Positions 44,052 through 51,782 of a DNA stretch of 64,000 nt are shown one piece after another. The notes under the pieces were generated by a model. That model saw only the letters and a program-made list of their open reading frames with translations, was not told the origin of the DNA and did not search any database. The stretch comes from Natronorubrum texcoconense (GTDB taxonomy: Archaea; Halobacteriota; Halobacteria; Halobacteriales; Natrialbaceae): contig NZ_FNFE01000006.1 of the NCBI RefSeq assembly GCF_900100335.1, positions 62,001 to 126,000 on the forward strand, written 5' to 3'. Position numbers and translations under genes: made by a program. How positions within the stretch are numbered: the stretch's first letter is position 1; each line of letters begins with the position of its first letter.

Positions 44052-44201
44052 ATGGTCCACATCGAGTGTGCGTCCTGCGGGTTCGAGCACACGATTCCGG
44101 AACGCGAAGACGATCCGGGCGGCGGCACGCGATGTCCGAACTGCGGCCAAAAACCGTTCTCGGTTCGTCGGGACGGACTCGAGTGGCATCCCGAGCCGTG
44201 A
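44052..44201 (+). CDS. 49-residue zinc-ribbon protein
   Basis: The ATG at 44052 gives MVHIECASCGFEHTIPERED followed by RCPNCGQKPF, a compact four-cysteine zinc ribbon. Haloarchaea encode many such micro-zinc-finger proteins. An in-frame GTG at 44019 would add eleven residues with no motif, so I prefer the ATG. Partners are unknown. Confidence 0.65.
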   Translation: MVHIECASCGFEHTIPEREDDPGGGTRCPNCGQKPFSVRRDGLEWHPEP

Positions 44202-44270: not shown

Positions 44271-45026
44271 TTAGAACAGGCCGCCGAGTTTCGACCGCAG
44301 CCAGCCGAGGACGCCGCCGGATCCGCCGTCGTCTTCCACCGTTGCCGGCACGTCGCCCTCGTCTTTGGCGACGAGCGCCGTTTCTTCCGACTCGGGCGCG
44401 TCGACGGTTTCGTCGGACGTGTCGGCGTCCTCGAGGTCGAGATCGCCGACTCCCGGATCCGAGGAATCGAAATCACCCTCTTCGTCGGTTGCTGGTTCCG
44501 TCTCCGCGGCGGAGTCGGCCGTGTCGTCCTCGAAGATAGTGTCGGTCTCTTCTTCGGGTTCGGCAACAGCGTTGGACTCGTTTTCAGTCGACTCGCCCTC
44601 GCCATCAGCGTCGGTCTCGGAAGACGCTCCGGACTCCACCCAGAGGAACTCCTTCTCTTTCGTCCGCCCGGTGAGCAACAGCTCCGCGAGTTCGTCGTCG
44701 TCGACGCGGAGGTCGTCGTCGATCTCGGGCTCCGGGTCAGGTTCGTCCGCGCTCGCGATGATGTCTTCCGGACTCTCGTCGGCGAGCACTTCGTCGGCGT
44801 CGTTCTCGGCGTTGGCTCGAAGTTGACCGAAGACGTCTGCAGCCGTCTGATCTTCGACGCCGTCGGCGCCGGTGTCGTTCCCGCCCCCCGTCGTTGATTC
44901 CGCTGTCGACTCGTCGCCCGCCCCCTCGAGCGACTCGTCCGCGAACTCCCCGAACAGTTCGTCGGCGCTCGCCCCCACGTCGAACGCGTCGTCACCCGAG
45001 TTCGTGTTTGTCGTACTATCTACCAT
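44271..45026 (-). CDS. acidic low-complexity protein with C-terminal amphipathic helix
   Basis: 251 residues from ATG 45026 (MVDSTTNTNSGDDAFDVGAS). More than a third of residues are Asp or Glu. A short ordered segment, DDELAELLLTGRTKEKEFLWVE, lies near the middle, and the protein ends GVLGWLRSKLGGLF, a strongly amphipathic helix. N-terminal DVGASADELFGEF may be another short interaction motif. I cannot name a family. An AT-rich box (about 45045-45055) lies upstream, with a GGAAGAGG-like SD just before the ATG. Confidence 0.7.
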   Translation of the reverse strand: MVDSTTNTNSGDDAFDVGASADELFGEFADESLEGAGDESTAESTTGGGNDTGADGVEDQTAADVFGQLRANAENDADEVLADESPEDIIASADEPDPEPEIDDDLRVDDDELAELLLTGRTKEKEFLWVESGASSETDADGEGESTENESNAVAEPEEETDTIFEDDTADSAAETEPATDEEGDFDSSDPGVGDLDLEDADTSDETVDAPESEETALVAKDEGDVPATVEDDGGSGGVLGWLRSKLGGLF

Positions 45027-45713
45027 GAACCTCTTCCGAGAACATACATAATAGCACGACTTTAACTTTTGGAATTTTTTCACCACCAGCGGCCAGAACT
45101 GATAGTGTATTAGTGTGTCGGCCGTTTTCGATCGGTCTCGCGATCGATAGTTGACAATGTCGTAGTTTTCTCGGCGTCGAGGAATGTTTGTGTAATTTGT
45201 CGTCGCTATCGAGGTGAAGCAGTCGCCCGCACGCCGTTCACCGATGATTACCTGCGATCACCGATTCCGTTACCGAGATGCGGTGATCGCCGTATTGCGA
45301 CGGGAGACGTGGCCGCAGTCTCACACAGTGAGTGATCACGACGCCATTACCGCGCCCGTCCCCCGACGGTATCGGTGTTCGGCCCTCGAACACGGAATCG
45401 TCGACCGACTGGACGACGAGCCGGAACCGCGGGCTGGTTCGTTAGACGAACGACTGATTACCGGTCGTCGACGGTGCAGTACGCGGACGGTCGTCGTCTC
45501 GGACGAGTACCGACTCGTCAGGTATCGAACGTCTCAGTCGGCGTTCCGTTACCGAGTTAGCTGAAAATCCAATTCGAGGTTGGGTTCGTCCGTTCGGTGG
45601 AAATACGCGCAGCGGTCAAGAACGATCCACCTCGTTTATGCGGGAATCCGCCCATTAGTTGGTGCAGTCCGACAGTCGCATTGGAGACGATTTTCGGAGG
45701 CAGTGAGGAGACC
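45027..45713. other. 687-bp intergenic region between divergent genes
   Basis: No convincing gene. A plus-strand frame at 45214-45564 is Arg-rich without haloarchaeal codon character and is treated as non-coding. The left part (45040-45080) is AT-rich and should hold the promoter of the acidic-protein gene. The right end contains the purine-rich GTGAGGAGA just before ATG 45714, a plausible SD for the repeat-protein gene. A non-coding RNA cannot be excluded. Confidence 0.4.
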
Positions 45714-47231
45714 ATGAGAGACAACAATCAGCGAACGCACGAGGACCAAGCGTACGACATCGGTCTGTCGCGTCGCACGCTTCTAGCGGGGACGGGCGCA
45801 GTCCTCGCTACCGGCGCAGTGCTACCGGCGACGGCGTTCGCACAGGAGGACGGAGCCGCCGAAGCGGGTATCGACGAGGGGATCGAACGCCTCGAGGACG
45901 AGGGCATCGAAGTCACGGACGAACAGCGAGCGGCGGCGGTCGATGCGGCGAATGACGCCGCTGATGAGCATCCGGACGCGGACGACGACCAAATCTTCGG
46001 AGCCGCGAGCGGCGCGGTGTTCGGAGCACTCGAGGAGGAACCGGAGGAAGAGCCGGAGACGGAGCCAGAGGAGTTCGAGGTACCAGACGAGGACGACGAC
46101 GAACTCGAGTTGCTGGCGCTCCAGCAGTCACAGACCCAGCAGATCGACGCCTCACAGGTCCAGGCGCTCGTGGGAGGCGGGATGAGTGGTGCGCTCGCAC
46201 AGTACCAGCGCGTCACCGCAACCCAGATCCAGCACGCGGCGAGGGGAGCGTGCCGCGGCGCGGCGTATCAGGCGCAGGTCGTGACCGTCGAGCAGCTCCA
46301 GATCGCCGCGTTCGGCGGCGCGACGGGGTCGCTCGTGCAGGCGCAGTCAGTGTCGGTGACACAGATTCAGGCGGCCGCCTGGGGCGGGGCCTCGGGCGCG
46401 CTCAGCGGAGTAACCCAGCACCAGAGCGTCTCGATTACCCAGTTACAAGCCGCTGCACAGGGTGCCGCAGAAGGCGCTGCTCGCGGGGCAGCCCAGCGAC
46501 AGGATGTTGCTGCCGACCAGATGATGGCGGCTGCCTACGGTTGTGCCCAAGGGGCGGCGATACAGACGCAGGTCACGAGCGTGACGCAGATCCAGGCGCT
46601 CGCCATCGGCGCGGCGCGCGGTATCGTCGTCACGTTCGTGCAGGTGACGATCATACAGATTCTCCTCGTGGCGAGGCAGGCGGTCGCCGCGATCAGCGTC
46701 GTGATCGTCCAAATCACTCTCGTCAGTATCACGCAGATTCAACAGTACGCGGAGGAGTCCGCGGCCAACACGATGGAACGAGTCGAGTCGGAGGGACTCG
46801 AGAGCGAAGACGAAATCGAGGAGGCTGCGTCCGACGAGGCGACGACGACCGCCGAAGAGGAAGGCTACGACGAGAACGGCGACGAAGCTGGCGACGGCGA
46901 AGACGGTGACGACGAGAACGGCGACGAAGATGGTGACGATGAAACTGGCAACGGTGAGAACGGCGACGAAGCTGATGGAAACGGCGACGGAGACGACGTG
47001 AACGGCGATGAAGACGGTGCAAACGGCAACGGTGAAGCAGGTGACGGCGCGAACGGCGAGGGAGATGGCGAAAGCGGTGAAAACGGTACCGACGTTGGCG
47101 ACGGCGGGAACGGCAACGGCGACACGGGCAACGGTGCCGCAAACGGCAACGGTGGAGGTAACGGCGACGCTGGCAACGATGCGACCAACAACGGTGCCAA
47201 CGGCGGCGATACACCGATAACGAGATTCTGA
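45714..47231 (+). CDS. Tat-exported repeat protein with Gln/Ala/Gly repeats and Asp-Gly-Asn tail
   Basis: 505 residues from ATG 45714, preceded by an SD-like GAGGAGA. A twin-arginine signal lies at 19-43 (SRRTLLAG, ending AFAQ). A charged region (45-135) follows. Residues ~140-345 are about eight or nine tandem repeats of ~23 residues with consensus xVTxTQIQxAAxGAAxGAxxQxQ. The seventh and eighth repeats are more Val/Ile-rich. Residues ~384-500 are an Asp/Gly/Asn/Glu low-complexity tail. The regular spacing suggests a solenoid or fibre-forming surface protein; I recognise no family. It is followed by the biotin operon, with a 240-bp gap. Confidence 0.85.
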   Translation: MRDNNQRTHEDQAYDIGLSRRTLLAGTGAVLATGAVLPATAFAQEDGAAEAGIDEGIERLEDEGIEVTDEQRAAAVDAANDAADEHPDADDDQIFGAASGAVFGALEEEPEEEPETEPEEFEVPDEDDDELELLALQQSQTQQIDASQVQALVGGGMSGALAQYQRVTATQIQHAARGACRGAAYQAQVVTVEQLQIAAFGGATGSLVQAQSVSVTQIQAAAWGGASGALSGVTQHQSVSITQLQAAAQGAAEGAARGAAQRQDVAADQMMAAAYGCAQGAAIQTQVTSVTQIQALAIGAARGIVVTFVQVTIIQILLVARQAVAAISVVIVQITLVSITQIQQYAEESAANTMERVESEGLESEDEIEEAASDEATTTAEEEGYDENGDEAGDGEDGDDENGDEDGDDETGNGENGDEADGNGDGDDVNGDEDGANGNGEAGDGANGEGDGESGENGTDVGDGGNGNGDTGNGAANGNGGGNGDAGNDATNNGANGGDTPITRF

Positions 47232-47471
47232 AGCGCCACCCGGAACGGAGCCGGAACCGCTCCGGCTCGCAGGCGTTTCGTGACGCAACGCCCAACGGAA
47301 CCGACCCGAACCGCTCGAATTCGCCGTCGAGCGCCCCTGTTTTCGGGTCGTTTCGATCCGGTACGGCGGCCGGGAGGGGCGATTCGGCTCTCGAGTCGAT
47401 CCGGTATCCCGTTCGTCGCAATAACAGGACGTTTCCCAAACACTTTATTCTCGTTAACCTATGATCGATTC

Positions 47472-48578
47472 GTGGTTTACGAGACGGACAACCAGACGGT
47501 CGACGACGCACTCGAGCGCGTGCTGGCCGGCGAGCGACTCGATCGAACCGACGGGCTCGCGCTGCTGGCCCAGCCGGTCGAGGCGCTCGCCGAAGCCGGC
47601 GCTGCCGTGCGCGATCAGTACGGCGACGGCACGGTCGACGCGTGCTCGATCGTCAACGCGAAGGCGGGCAACTGCGCGGAGGACTGTGGCTTCTGTGCGC
47701 AGTCGGTCCACTTCGACACCGGCATCGACACCTACGGCTTCCTCGGACCCGAGAAGATCCTCGAGGCGGCCAAACGCGCCGAACGCGACGGGGCCCAGCG
47801 CTTCGGCATCGTCGTCGCGGAGAAAGGCGTCTCCAAGGAAAACCGGCCCGAAGAGTGGAAAGAGGTCCTCGAGTCCATCCGACTCGTTCGAGACGAGTGT
47901 GATCTCGAGGTCGACGCCTCTCTCGGCATTCTCACCGAAGAGGAGGCCGCGATCCTCGCCGACGAGGGGATCAACCACTACAATCACAACATCGAAACCT
48001 CGCCGCGGTACTTCCCCGAAATCGTCGGCACGCACAGCTTCGAGGATCGGGTGAAAACGCTCGAAGTCGCCAAGGAGGCCGGTATGGACCTCTGTGCGGG
48101 CGTCATCCTCGGAATGGGCGAGACGCCGACCGACCGCGTCGACGCCGCCATCGCCTTACAGGAGATCGGCATCTCCTCGCTCCCGGTGAACGTCCTTAAT
48201 CCCGTCGCGGGGACACCACTGGCCGAGCAGGGCGTCGAGATCACCACCGAAGAGATCGTCAAAACGGTCGCGGTGTACAAACTGCTCCACCCCGAGTCCC
48301 GCGTTCGGCTGACGGGCGGTCGTGAGGTCAACCTCTCGCCCGACGAGCAACATCTGCCGCTCGAGGCGGGTGCCGACGGCCTGCTCACGGGCGACTATCT
48401 CACGACCGAGGGCCAGTCCCCCGGCGAGGATCTCGAAATCATCGAACGAGCCGGTCTCGAGCCAAACATGGAGGCCAACGAGTTCGATCCGGAAGCGGTC
48501 AAGGCTCGCGGCGCAGAGGCCGCGGAGTCGTCGACCGAGACGACGGCGAGTACGGGCGCGGAACCGAGCGACGACTGA
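47472..48578 (+). CDS. bioB: biotin synthase
   Basis: 368 residues from GTG 47472 (VVYETDNQTV), just after an AT-rich stretch (CTTTATTCTCGTTAACC). The radical-SAM cluster CxxxCxxC is Cys68, Cys72 and Cys75 (NCAEDCGFCAQS). Downstream motifs include YNHNIETSPRYF, GVILGMGET and NVLNPVAGTPL of BioB, and the [2Fe-2S] ligand Arg region near RLTGGREVN. It inserts sulfur into dethiobiotin. The last ~35 residues are an acidic/Thr tail. First gene of the bioB-bioU-like-bioF-bioD cluster; the next gene begins 27 bp downstream. Confidence 0.95.
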   Translation: MVYETDNQTVDDALERVLAGERLDRTDGLALLAQPVEALAEAGAAVRDQYGDGTVDACSIVNAKAGNCAEDCGFCAQSVHFDTGIDTYGFLGPEKILEAAKRAERDGAQRFGIVVAEKGVSKENRPEEWKEVLESIRLVRDECDLEVDASLGILTEEEAAILADEGINHYNHNIETSPRYFPEIVGTHSFEDRVKTLEVAKEAGMDLCAGVILGMGETPTDRVDAAIALQEIGISSLPVNVLNPVAGTPLAEQGVEITTEEIVKTVAVYKLLHPESRVRLTGGREVNLSPDEQHLPLEAGADGLLTGDYLTTEGQSPGEDLEIIERAGLEPNMEANEFDPEAVKARGAEAAESSTETTASTGAEPSDD

Positions 48579-48605: not shown

Positions 48606-49670
48606 ATGGACGACATCACGTTTGCAGTACTCGGAACGGGAGGAATCGGCCGACGAGCACTCGAAGTGAGCCAACATAAGGAACACCTGACGCCCGCCGT
48701 AGCCTGTGACCGCCACGGCACCGCGATCGATTTCGATGGGCTGGACGTGGACGAGCTGTTGGCCGCAACCGAGGGCAACATCGATAATGAAGTCGCGACA
48801 GACGGCGGAACGGGCGCCACACCAGCCGACGGTGAGGGCGGCGTCAAACAACACGGCGAGGACAGGGGCGTCGTCGCCTCGAGTCAGGCCCGTCCCAGCG
48901 AGGATCCGATTCAGGACGTGATCGATCACGGCGACGAGATCGACGCTGTCCTGCTGGCGCTGCCGAACTACGAACACGACTTCATCCCGCGGGTCGCCGA
49001 CCGGTTCCTCGAGGGCGGCTACTCAGGCGTCATGATCGACGTGCTCAAGCGCTCGCGCGTAATCGACATGCTCGACGAGCGCGGCGACGAGTTCGAAGAC
49101 GCGGGTATCACGTTCATCTGTGGCGCCGGCGCGACACCGGGTCTCCTGACGGGCGCTGCGGCGCTCGCTGCCCAATCGTTCGTCGAGGTCACCGACGTCG
49201 AGATCTGGTGGGGTGTCGGTCTCAAGTCCGGCTACCAAGATAACCGCGGCACCGTCCGCGAGGACATCGCCCATCTTCCCGAGTACAATATCGAGACGGC
49301 TCGAGACCTCTCGGACGCGGAAATCGAGGACATTATCGACGACCACGACGGCGTCATCGAGTTCGAGGACATGGAACACGCCGACGACGTGCTCCTCGAG
49401 CGCGCAGGCGTCTGCGACTCCGAGGACGTGGCCGTCGGCGGCGTTTTGGACGTCCGCAGCGACGAGAAACCGACGACGACCACCGTCAGCGTGACGGGAA
49501 CGACCTTCGACGGCGAGACGGCGACGAACACCTTCCAGCTCGGCGACGAGACGAGTATGGAGGCCAACGTCAACGGACCGGCACTCGGTTACCTGAAGAC
49601 AGGCGTGCGGCGAAATCGCGCTGGCGAGTACGGCGTCTTCGGTCCCGCCGAACTGATGCCGAGCTTCTGA
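48606..49670 (+). CDS. bioU: BioU-like dehydrogenase-fold protein, candidate DAPA-forming enzyme
   Basis: 354 residues. An N-terminal Rossmann fold (FAVLGTGGIGRRALEVSQHK) is followed by LLALPNYEHDFIPRVADRFL and a saccharopine-dehydrogenase-like C-terminal domain. It sits between bioB and bioF, and the cluster has no bioA aminotransferase. BioU, known from cyanobacteria with haloarchaeal homologues, makes 7,8-diaminopelargonate by sacrificing its own lysine side-chain amine. Lys148 in SGVMIDVLKRS is at about the expected place for that lysine. The assignment rests on gene context, fold and this residue, not on an alignment. Confidence 0.8.
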   Translation: MDDITFAVLGTGGIGRRALEVSQHKEHLTPAVACDRHGTAIDFDGLDVDELLAATEGNIDNEVATDGGTGATPADGEGGVKQHGEDRGVVASSQARPSEDPIQDVIDHGDEIDAVLLALPNYEHDFIPRVADRFLEGGYSGVMIDVLKRSRVIDMLDERGDEFEDAGITFICGAGATPGLLTGAAALAAQSFVEVTDVEIWWGVGLKSGYQDNRGTVREDIAHLPEYNIETARDLSDAEIEDIIDDHDGVIEFEDMEHADDVLLERAGVCDSEDVAVGGVLDVRSDEKPTTTTVSVTGTTFDGETATNTFQLGDETSMEANVNGPALGYLKTGVRRNRAGEYGVFGPAELMPSF

Positions 49671-49847
49671 GACGGGAGCGACTGTACCGTCTCTCCGGCG
49701 TACCGATTCGCGGTACCAGGGGCCGTATCAATCCTCGGTTCCAGGCGCCGTATCGGTCGAACCTACTGCCCAGCGGCCGTCACAGTAACGAGTACGATCG
49801 TGATAACCCTCGTAATGCGTGCAACACAGAACCGTGAAAGTGAAAGC

Positions 49848-51080
49848 ATGGCACTGACACCGTACACCCGAATGGAAGACCGCGGGTTCGACCTCGAGAC
49901 TCGACTCGACGTCCTCGAGGAAGCCGATCTGAAACGAACGCTCTCCCCCGTCGATCGAGTCGCGGAGCGAGGCTACTTCGCACCGCCCTGTGGCGGCGAG
50001 CTACCGGTTCTCGACTCGGCCGAAGCGCTGGTGTTCGCCTCGAACAATTATCTGGGGCTGACCGACGACCAGCGGGTTCAGGACGCAGCCCGGCAGGCCG
50101 CCGCGACCGTCGGCACGGGTGCCGGTGCCAGCCGACTCGTCACCGGCGACACGCTGGTTCATCAGGACTTAGAGCGCGTGCTCGCCGAGACGAAAGGAAC
50201 CGAGCGGGCGCTCGCCTTCCCGTCTGGGTACGCGGCGAACGTCGGAACGATCACGGCCCTCGAGCCGGATGTGATCTTCTCCGACGAGTACAACCACGCG
50301 AGCATCATCGACGGCTGTCGGCTCACGGACGCTGACTCGGTCGTCTACAGCCACTGCGATCCGACGAGTTTGCGGACGAAACTGGAGGAGCAAGCCAGAA
50401 CCGCCGGCGACGCGGACGAGTCGTGGCTGATCGTCACCGACTCCGTGTTCAGCATGGATGGAACCGTCGCACCGATCGCAGAGCTCTGCGACCTCGCCGA
50501 GGAGTTCGGCGCGTGGGTGATGGTCGACGAGGCCCACGCGACGGGGCTCTACGCGAACGGCGGCGGCGTCGTCCAGTCGGAGGGACTCGAGGATCGCGTC
50601 CACGTCCAGATGGGGACGCTCTCGAAGGCGCTGGCGAGCCAGGGCGGCTACGTTGCGGGGAGCAACGAGTTGATCGAGTGTCTCTGCAACGACGCTCGCT
50701 CGTTCGTCTTCTCCACCGGGCTCGCGCCGCCGGCCGCGGCGGCCGCGAGCGAGGCGCTCCACGTCGCCCGCCACAGCGACGTCCGAGAACGGCTCTGGGA
50801 GAACGTCGCCCACCTTCGAGACGGTCTCGAGTCGATGGGCTTCGAAGTGATCGGCGACTCGCAGATCCTCCCCGTCCTCGTCGGCGACCGACGGGATGCG
50901 CTCGCGCTGGCCGACGGACTCCGCTCGCGAGAGATCGTCGCACCCGCGATCCGTCCGCCGACGGTGCCCGAGGGAACGAGTCGAATTCGCGTCGCTCCGA
51001 TGGCGACCCACGAACAGCGCGACATCGTTGCCTGCCTCGAAGCGTTCCGAGCAGCGGGCGAAGACGTCGGGATTCTCTGA
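49848..51080 (+). CDS. bioF: 8-amino-7-oxononanoate synthase
   Basis: 410 residues from ATG 49848 (MALTPYTRMEDRG); ATG 49872 is an alternative. Alpha-oxoamine synthase hallmarks: FASNNYLGLTDDQRV, TGAGASRLVTGDTLVHQDLE, VDEAHATGLYA and the PLP Lys260 in GTLSKALASQGGY. It joins a pimeloyl thioester to L-alanine to give KAPA. The source of pimeloyl-CoA or -ACP (bioW or bioC/bioH) is not visible here. bioD follows ten bases downstream. Confidence 0.95.
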   Translation: MALTPYTRMEDRGFDLETRLDVLEEADLKRTLSPVDRVAERGYFAPPCGGELPVLDSAEALVFASNNYLGLTDDQRVQDAARQAAATVGTGAGASRLVTGDTLVHQDLERVLAETKGTERALAFPSGYAANVGTITALEPDVIFSDEYNHASIIDGCRLTDADSVVYSHCDPTSLRTKLEEQARTAGDADESWLIVTDSVFSMDGTVAPIAELCDLAEEFGAWVMVDEAHATGLYANGGGVVQSEGLEDRVHVQMGTLSKALASQGGYVAGSNELIECLCNDARSFVFSTGLAPPAAAAASEALHVARHSDVRERLWENVAHLRDGLESMGFEVIGDSQILPVLVGDRRDALALADGLRSREIVAPAIRPPTVPEGTSRIRVAPMATHEQRDIVACLEAFRAAGEDVGIL

Positions 51081-51089
51081 GGACCACCG

Positions 51090-51782
51090 ATGAGTGACAC
51101 CAGCACCACGGTCGCGATCGTTGGGACCGGTACCGGTATCGGAAAAACCGTCGTGACCGCGGGTATCACTCGCTGGCTCCGTGAGAACGGCGCGGATGCG
51201 CGAGCGATCAAACCCGCCCAGACCGGCTATCCGCCGGACGACGATGCGGGCTTCGTCGCCGAGGCGTGCGAGGCGGACGAGGCCGCGACCTGTCCCCGCT
51301 ATCTCGAACCCGCACTCGCACCGCGCGTGGCCGCGGCCGAAGCCGGCGAGACCCTCACGTACGACTCGATTCTGTCGGCGTGCAACGCTGCGATCGCGGA
51401 CACGTCACACCCGATCGTCGAGGGAATCGGCGGACTGCGGGTGCCCCTCGCCGACGACCGCGAGGTGATCGACCTCGTCGCGGATCTGGATGCTACTGCG
51501 GTGGTCGTCACCCGTTCGGGACTCGGCACGCTCAACCACACCGCGCTCTCGGTCGAAGCGCTCGAGCGCCGCGGGATCGATATCGCCGGCATCGTCTGCA
51601 ACGAGTACGCGGGCGCGACGGTCGCCGAGCGGACCAACCCCGCCGAACTCGAGCGCATGACAGGCTACGCAGTCGAAACGGTGCCACCGCTCGAAGGGGA
51701 GACACCGCGGGCGATGGCTATCGGTGTCGAAACCGCACTCTCGTCGAGGTTTCTGGAACGGTTTCTAACCGTAGACGGCTGA
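51090..51782 (+). CDS. bioD: dethiobiotin synthetase
   Basis: 230 residues. The P-loop is GTGTGIGKTVVTAG (10-23), followed by KPAQTGYPPDD, EPALAPRVAA and VEGIGGLRVPLADD, all BioD landmarks. It carboxylates and closes the ring of DAPA using ATP and CO2, the step between BioU (or BioA) and BioB. Last gene of the cluster. Its end is convergent with a small C2H2 protein gene. Confidence 0.95.
   Translation: MSDTSTTVAIVGTGTGIGKTVVTAGITRWLRENGADARAIKPAQTGYPPDDDAGFVAEACEADEAATCPRYLEPALAPRVAAAEAGETLTYDSILSACNAAIADTSHPIVEGIGGLRVPLADDREVIDLVADLDATAVVVTRSGLGTLNHTALSVEALERRGIDIAGIVCNEYAGATVAERTNPAELERMTGYAVETVPPLEGETPRAMAIGVETALSSRFLERFLTVDG

Follow-up and report, generated by a model that had tools for sequence, protein, structure and literature searches.

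The repeats of curli subunits are characterised by the motif N-x-hydrophobic-x-hydrophobic-x-Q (PMC12822426), the sheath protein SH of Methanospirillum hungatei has an amyloid-like beta part (PMC10593813), and the biofilms of Haloferax volcanii show putative amyloid by dye staining, with a candidate gene proposed only tentatively (PMC4180959). The protein described here, encoded in a 64,000-nucleotide stretch of the Natronorubrum texcoconense genome (the window), resembles the curli subunits CsgA and CsgB in being, by prediction, a secreted protein with several imperfect repeats of similar length and conserved Gln residues in an alternating hydrophobic pattern. In contrast to CsgA and CsgB, its repeats have Ala/Gly tetrads in place of the second N-x-h-x-h-x-Q motif, and no curli operon genes were recognised among the neighbours of its gene. 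SH, an archaeal extracellular protein, offers an analogy only. The window protein also differs from the CARDB/TSP3 surface proteins of archaea and bacteria, consisting only of a repeat domain and an acidic tail, with CARDB and TSP3 domains instead found to follow the repeat domain in its long relatives. The closest structural analogues of its AlphaFold model are the designed helical repeat proteins DHR5, DHR18, and FD15 (PDB 8ugc), which also consist of regular short-helix repeats, however these proteins are designed and their RMSD to the model is 7–10 Å, an analogy of arrangement only.

The open reading frame spans positions 45714–47231 of the window on the forward strand and encodes 505 residues from an ATG start, with GGAGG/GAGGAG lying immediately 5' of the start codon. 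A twin-arginine (Tat) signal peptide (MRDNN...SRRTLLAGTGAVLATGAVLPATAFA, 45714–45842, +) is predicted from a twin-arginine motif, a hydrophobic stretch, and an AxA-type site (LSRRTLLAGTGAVLATGAVLPATAFA), marking the protein by motif as a putative Tat export substrate; the RR motif is also present in the short forms from Natronococcus. Three degenerate N-terminal units follow (AGIDEGIERLEDEG.IEVTDEQRAAAVDAANDAADEHPDA.DDDQIFGAASGAVFGAL, 45855–46034, +), as placed by our alignment of the family (A1) and by the AlphaFold model, and A1 shows these units to be kept throughout the family, with the family signature G[IV]xEG[IV]E...G[IV]EV[TS]xEQ present in the window protein ahead of the repeats. An acidic linker (EEEPEEEPETEPEEFEVPDEDDDE..., 46035–46136, +), corresponding to columns 70–104 of A1 and lacking from the long paralogues in that alignment, leads to nine repeats of 23–26 residues each (46137–46787, +), delimited by the repeat cores and the family profile. 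The remainder of the protein is an acidic Asp/Gly/Glu/Asn-rich tail of ~150 residues (46788–47228, +), composed of 27% Gly, 18% Asp, 16% Glu, and 13% Asn, which is probably disordered and has no hydrophobic C-terminal stretch to act as an anchor. Neither the repeat region nor the tail contains a single lysine. An earlier note on this DNA had described a Tat signal, eight or nine repeats of ~23 residues, and a long Asp/Gly/Asn-rich tail, and all three features are recovered here by motif, by the location of nine repeat cores, and by composition, respectively.

A short orthologue is present in just one other sampled genome, that of a sister species, from which it follows that the gene is dispensable. 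Between the two proteins the repeats are 95% identical, with a dN/dS of 0.11, indicating that the gene is real and under purifying selection, whilst conservation is lowest in the tail (84% identity, dN/dS 0.19).

The nine repeat cores begin at residues 142, 165, 188, 211, 237, 263, 286, 309, and 335, and share the consensus Q-x-V-T-V-x-Q-I-Q-x-A-A-x-G-A-A-x-G-A-L-x-Q-x-Q, with the last two repeats degenerate and hydrophobic. The 23-residue periodicity is far above chance, with a self-identity of 0.28 at a lag of 23 residues in the repeat region compared with a maximum of 0.23 at any lag over 2000 shuffles. A DNA repeat search found long DNA repeat families in the tail only, with none spanning the repeat region, and the repeats are therefore a protein-level feature and not the product of recent DNA duplications. 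Across the family, cores are spaced by 23 residues in 631 cases, by 26 in 126, and by 25 in 88, and the unit reads Q-x-Q-x-V-x-V-x-Q-[IVL]-Q-x-A-A-x-G-A-A-x-G-A-L-x; all nine cores of the window protein follow the pattern Q-x-Q-x-V-x-V-x-Q-[IVL]-Q-x-A-A-x-G-A-A-x-G at a spacing of 23–26 residues. In a set of 530 distinct units of 23 residues, four positions are Gln in 96–100% of units and two are Gly in 97–100%. The pattern used to pick units required Gln at one of these positions and allowed Gln, Glu, Lys, or Arg at another, so that both were partly selected for, whereas it placed no demand on the remaining two Gln positions or on either Gly position. The remaining positions of the Ala/Gly half are mostly Ala or small residues. 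From the near-invariance of the Gln and Gly residues we infer specific side-chain contacts.

Searches of Pfam and NCBIfam gave no family that matches the window protein or covers its repeats, no PDB sequence matches the repeat profile at E-values up to 10, and our literature search found no paper naming DUF7282 or combining the features of the repeat, in keeping with the earlier note, which gave no named family for it. Nor are homologues restricted to a few strains with no conservation of the repeat, an outcome that note had allowed for; the repeat is instead conserved across many haloarchaeal genera, with relatives found in 103 of 125 Natrialbaceae genomes and, across five families of the class, in 112 of 391. 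When one genome from each of ~85,000 prokaryote species was scanned with two peptide patterns alone, the 55 loci recovered were without exception haloarchaeal by title, and members beyond the haloarchaea may have escaped this search.

The repeat domain stands at the N-terminus of exported proteins of 500–2200 residues, with DUF7282, CARDB, TSP3, and CAP domains located C-terminal to the repeats in the long relatives, and ~ten relatives outside the Natrialbaceae carrying a membrane segment with basic residues after it at the C-terminal end. The window genome itself encodes a paralogue of ~1385 residues with more repeats. Neither a Pfam domain nor a hydrophobic segment at the C-terminus is present in the window protein, and as judged from its sequence it belongs to the family by its repeat domain and not by the long architecture; without an anchor, CARDB, or TSP3, its role may therefore differ from that of the long forms. 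In the family tree the window protein and its orthologue form a pair set apart by a branch of 2.2 changes per column, a long one, without a resolved sister. The members fit best as a new family of exported haloarchaeal proteins defined by the repeat domain, and within it the window gene is a rare outlier that encodes a short, Tat-exported protein.

Other short members were observed in Natronococcus and a related MAG (loci L061, L064, and L065), where Tat-exported repeat proteins with CARDB-like tails are encoded beside substrate-binding proteins that resemble NMT1/THI5 by eye. At two further loci (L125, 7977–13073, and L048) the repeat domain is fused to TSP3 repeats and a C-terminal membrane segment, with the L125 protein also carrying a CAP domain and its gene lying near cobalamin-looking genes.

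The domain partners and anchors of the long relatives are most economically read as pointing to an extracellular structural or adhesive module, and the repeat domain is most likely a repeat module of the cell surface or matrix. For the window protein we favour, at slightly better than even odds, a secreted structural repeat protein, a short Tat-exported outlier of a haloarchaea-wide surface-protein family, that would act as a spacer at the surface or in the matrix, or else mediate self-association. The chain would fold in the cytoplasm and then be exported by Tat as a folded protein, with the three helical N-terminal units capping the repeat domain, the repeats forming a rod-like solenoid, and the invariant Gln and Gly residues making contacts between neighbouring units of that solenoid. 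The lysine-free acidic tail may keep the protein soluble in salt or bind cations. In the larger relatives the same N-terminal rod would be followed by adhesion-type domains, and sometimes by a membrane anchor, a position that makes the same spacer or self-association role the most likely one for the rod.

Modelling of the window protein with AlphaFold from a 25-row alignment yields an all-helical domain, with the three N-terminal units forming three helices at a pLDDT of ~95, the first repeats at 73–93, and most later repeats below 60. The confident helical N-terminus and the regular units of this model count towards a structural repeat protein. In the model of the most regular relative, from Natronococcus (L129, which has 11 repeat cores; 18-row alignment), the N-terminal units are again helical and the repeats form a regular two-strand solenoid at an unreliable pLDDT of ~40; this disagreement between the two models on the fold counts against the proposed solenoid rod. 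Conservation alternates in a strand-like manner in the Gln/Val half, Q-x-Q-x-V-x-V-x-Q-x-Q (p = 0.0003), and peaks at 98 degrees, weakly helix-like, in the Ala/Gly half (p = 0.04), with both p-values obtained by permuting positions in one profile over several chosen stretches and thus indicative only. Foldseek returned no match to the window model below an E-value of 0.02, the best being a designed helical repeat, and comparison with designed helical repeats by VIA gave Z scores of 6–10 (best 9.9, with an RMSD of 8.3 Å), scores that are commonly high for helical models. Matches of the L129 beta model in Foldseek were insignificant (best E = 3.6), and a match to a curli subunit at E = 5 was discarded as not constituting evidence. 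On this evidence a helical fold, a beta-solenoid, and a mixed strand-helix solenoid are all possible for the repeats, and we lean towards a helix-containing solenoid.

The best surviving alternative, albeit an improbable one, is a functional amyloid or curli-like beta-solenoid, in which every repeat would adopt a strand-turn-strand arch, the Gln residues would stack into ladders, and the protein, once secreted, would polymerise into matrix fibres. The Q-x-V-x-V-x-Q stretch of the repeat resembles the curli motif (PMC12822426), and the putative amyloid in Haloferax volcanii biofilms (PMC4180959) also speaks for this reading. The beta-solenoid with Gln ladders suggested in the earlier note draws support from the strand-like alternation of the Gln/Val half and from the two-strand model of L129, however the low pLDDT and insignificant Foldseek matches of that model, together with the all-helical model of the window protein, speak against it. 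Unlike CsgA and CsgB, the window protein lacks the QX10Q spacing, with the Gln residues of the unit located at positions -2, 4, 6, 19, and 21 of 23 residues and no spacing of 11 between them, and it gives no match to the Pfam curlin profile at E-values up to 10, a search in which the HMMER filters drop weak matches. Further unlike these subunits, it is predicted to be exported by Tat, which translocates folded proteins, whereas subunits on a curli-like route cross the membrane unfolded; passage through Tat fits an unfolded fibre subunit poorly, and this argues mildly against a curli-like route for the window protein. A stronger proposal is more doubtful still, namely that the repeats form a functional amyloid or Gln-ladder solenoid peculiar to haloarchaea, arisen by convergence with curli, which would fold at high salt and build the extracellular matrix whose staining by amyloid dyes in haloarchaeal biofilms has so far been tied to genes only tentatively.

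Lower again in our estimation stands a cation-binding or water-structuring secreted protein that gives salt or surface protection, with the acidic tail as its active part and the repeats as a mere scaffold. Such a role is suggested by a Gly- and Asn-rich tail of which one-third is Asp and Glu, by the lack of lysine in both repeats and tail, and by the presence in relatives of TSP3 repeats, which are usually calcium-binding. However, acidic tails are common among haloarchaeal secreted proteins, and it is the tail that has diverged most from the orthologue while the repeats are kept.

The genomic surroundings of the gene bear on a further alternative. The earlier note had placed a 1.9-kb stretch free of other genes upstream, however two conserved genes lie there, a zinc-ribbon gene (44052–44201, +) and a gene for an acidic protein of 251 residues (44271–45026, −), and the true gap is 687 bp (45027–45713). 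The acidic gene is present in all ten genomes of the genus and lies near bioB in the sampled congeners, with the zinc-ribbon gene conserved beside it. Downstream of the repeat gene are bioB (47472–48578, +), a gene for an unnamed NAD-binding protein (48606–49670), bioF (49800–51080), and bioD (51090–51782), all assigned from sequence knowledge and conservation. The NAD-binding, dehydrogenase-like protein is also conserved between bioB and bioF at locus L190, and is possibly an enzyme of the biotin pathway. A BirA-type palindrome, GTTAACC-N14-GGTTTAC (47453–47480), extends over the start of bioB, with the site also found in 12 of 12 loci from 12 other genomes, and it marks the promoter of bioB as distinct from the repeat gene. 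In the form GTWAACC-N14-GGTTTAC the palindrome recurs throughout the Natrialbaceae where bioB and bioY begin, at bioY within the intergenic region that separates it from the long repeat gene (L005 and equivalent loci), which suggests a biotin operator in haloarchaea.

The bioY and bioB surroundings first led us to favour a surface protein for biotin acquisition or vitamin scavenging, whose repeat domain would capture biotin or serve the BioY transporter, a reading set aside after the operator scan and the slot comparison described below and now the least probable of those weighed here. Of 100 Natrialbaceae genomes, 92 have the long paralogue and bioY on one contig and no more than 6 kb apart, and the paralogue is divergent from bioY-ecfA-ecfT in all bioY-adjacent loci read; the window gene precedes bioB, and a TSP3-rich member from a different haloarchaeal family (L190, 6638–10966, −) lies just 3' of bioB-X-bioF-bioD. 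However, the BirA-type box belongs to bioY (~42 nt upstream) and to bioB, with the operator scan finding none near the start of the window gene or of other repeat genes away from bioY. Between the acidic gene and bioB, congeners have either an empty interval (~330–400 bp) or one that holds RuBisCO-like and haloalkane-dehalogenase-like genes, or in others Tat-lipoprotein-like genes, with the repeat gene filling it in two of the genomes compared (window 45027–47452, and L200–L211); the interval is a variable slot, and the closeness of the window gene to bioB therefore needs no functional reason. The genes on the far side of the long gene are kept as well, and with synteny conserved on both sides its proximity to bioY within the Natrialbaceae may be simple inheritance. 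A biotin link for the repeat family is thus unlikely. A wider vitamin-locus reading, drawn from a few other members that lie near btuFCD-, thi4/thiD-, cobalamin-, or THI5-like genes by eye, was likewise rejected, with most placements unrelated, the majority of neighbours beyond the Natrialbaceae having no vitamin connection, and the grouping made post hoc.

As a probable module of the cell surface or matrix, the repeat domain is widespread and unnamed, yet no surprise in kind. With four near-invariant Gln residues per 23 and no name in the domain libraries searched, it heads large exported proteins and is carried by about one in four sampled species of haloarchaea and about four in five of the Natrialbaceae. 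It is an obvious subject for structure determination and offers a way into the question of what holds haloarchaeal cells and biofilms together. Should its Gln residues indeed stack, the domain would rank among the candidates for the unassigned amyloid-like material seen in such biofilms.
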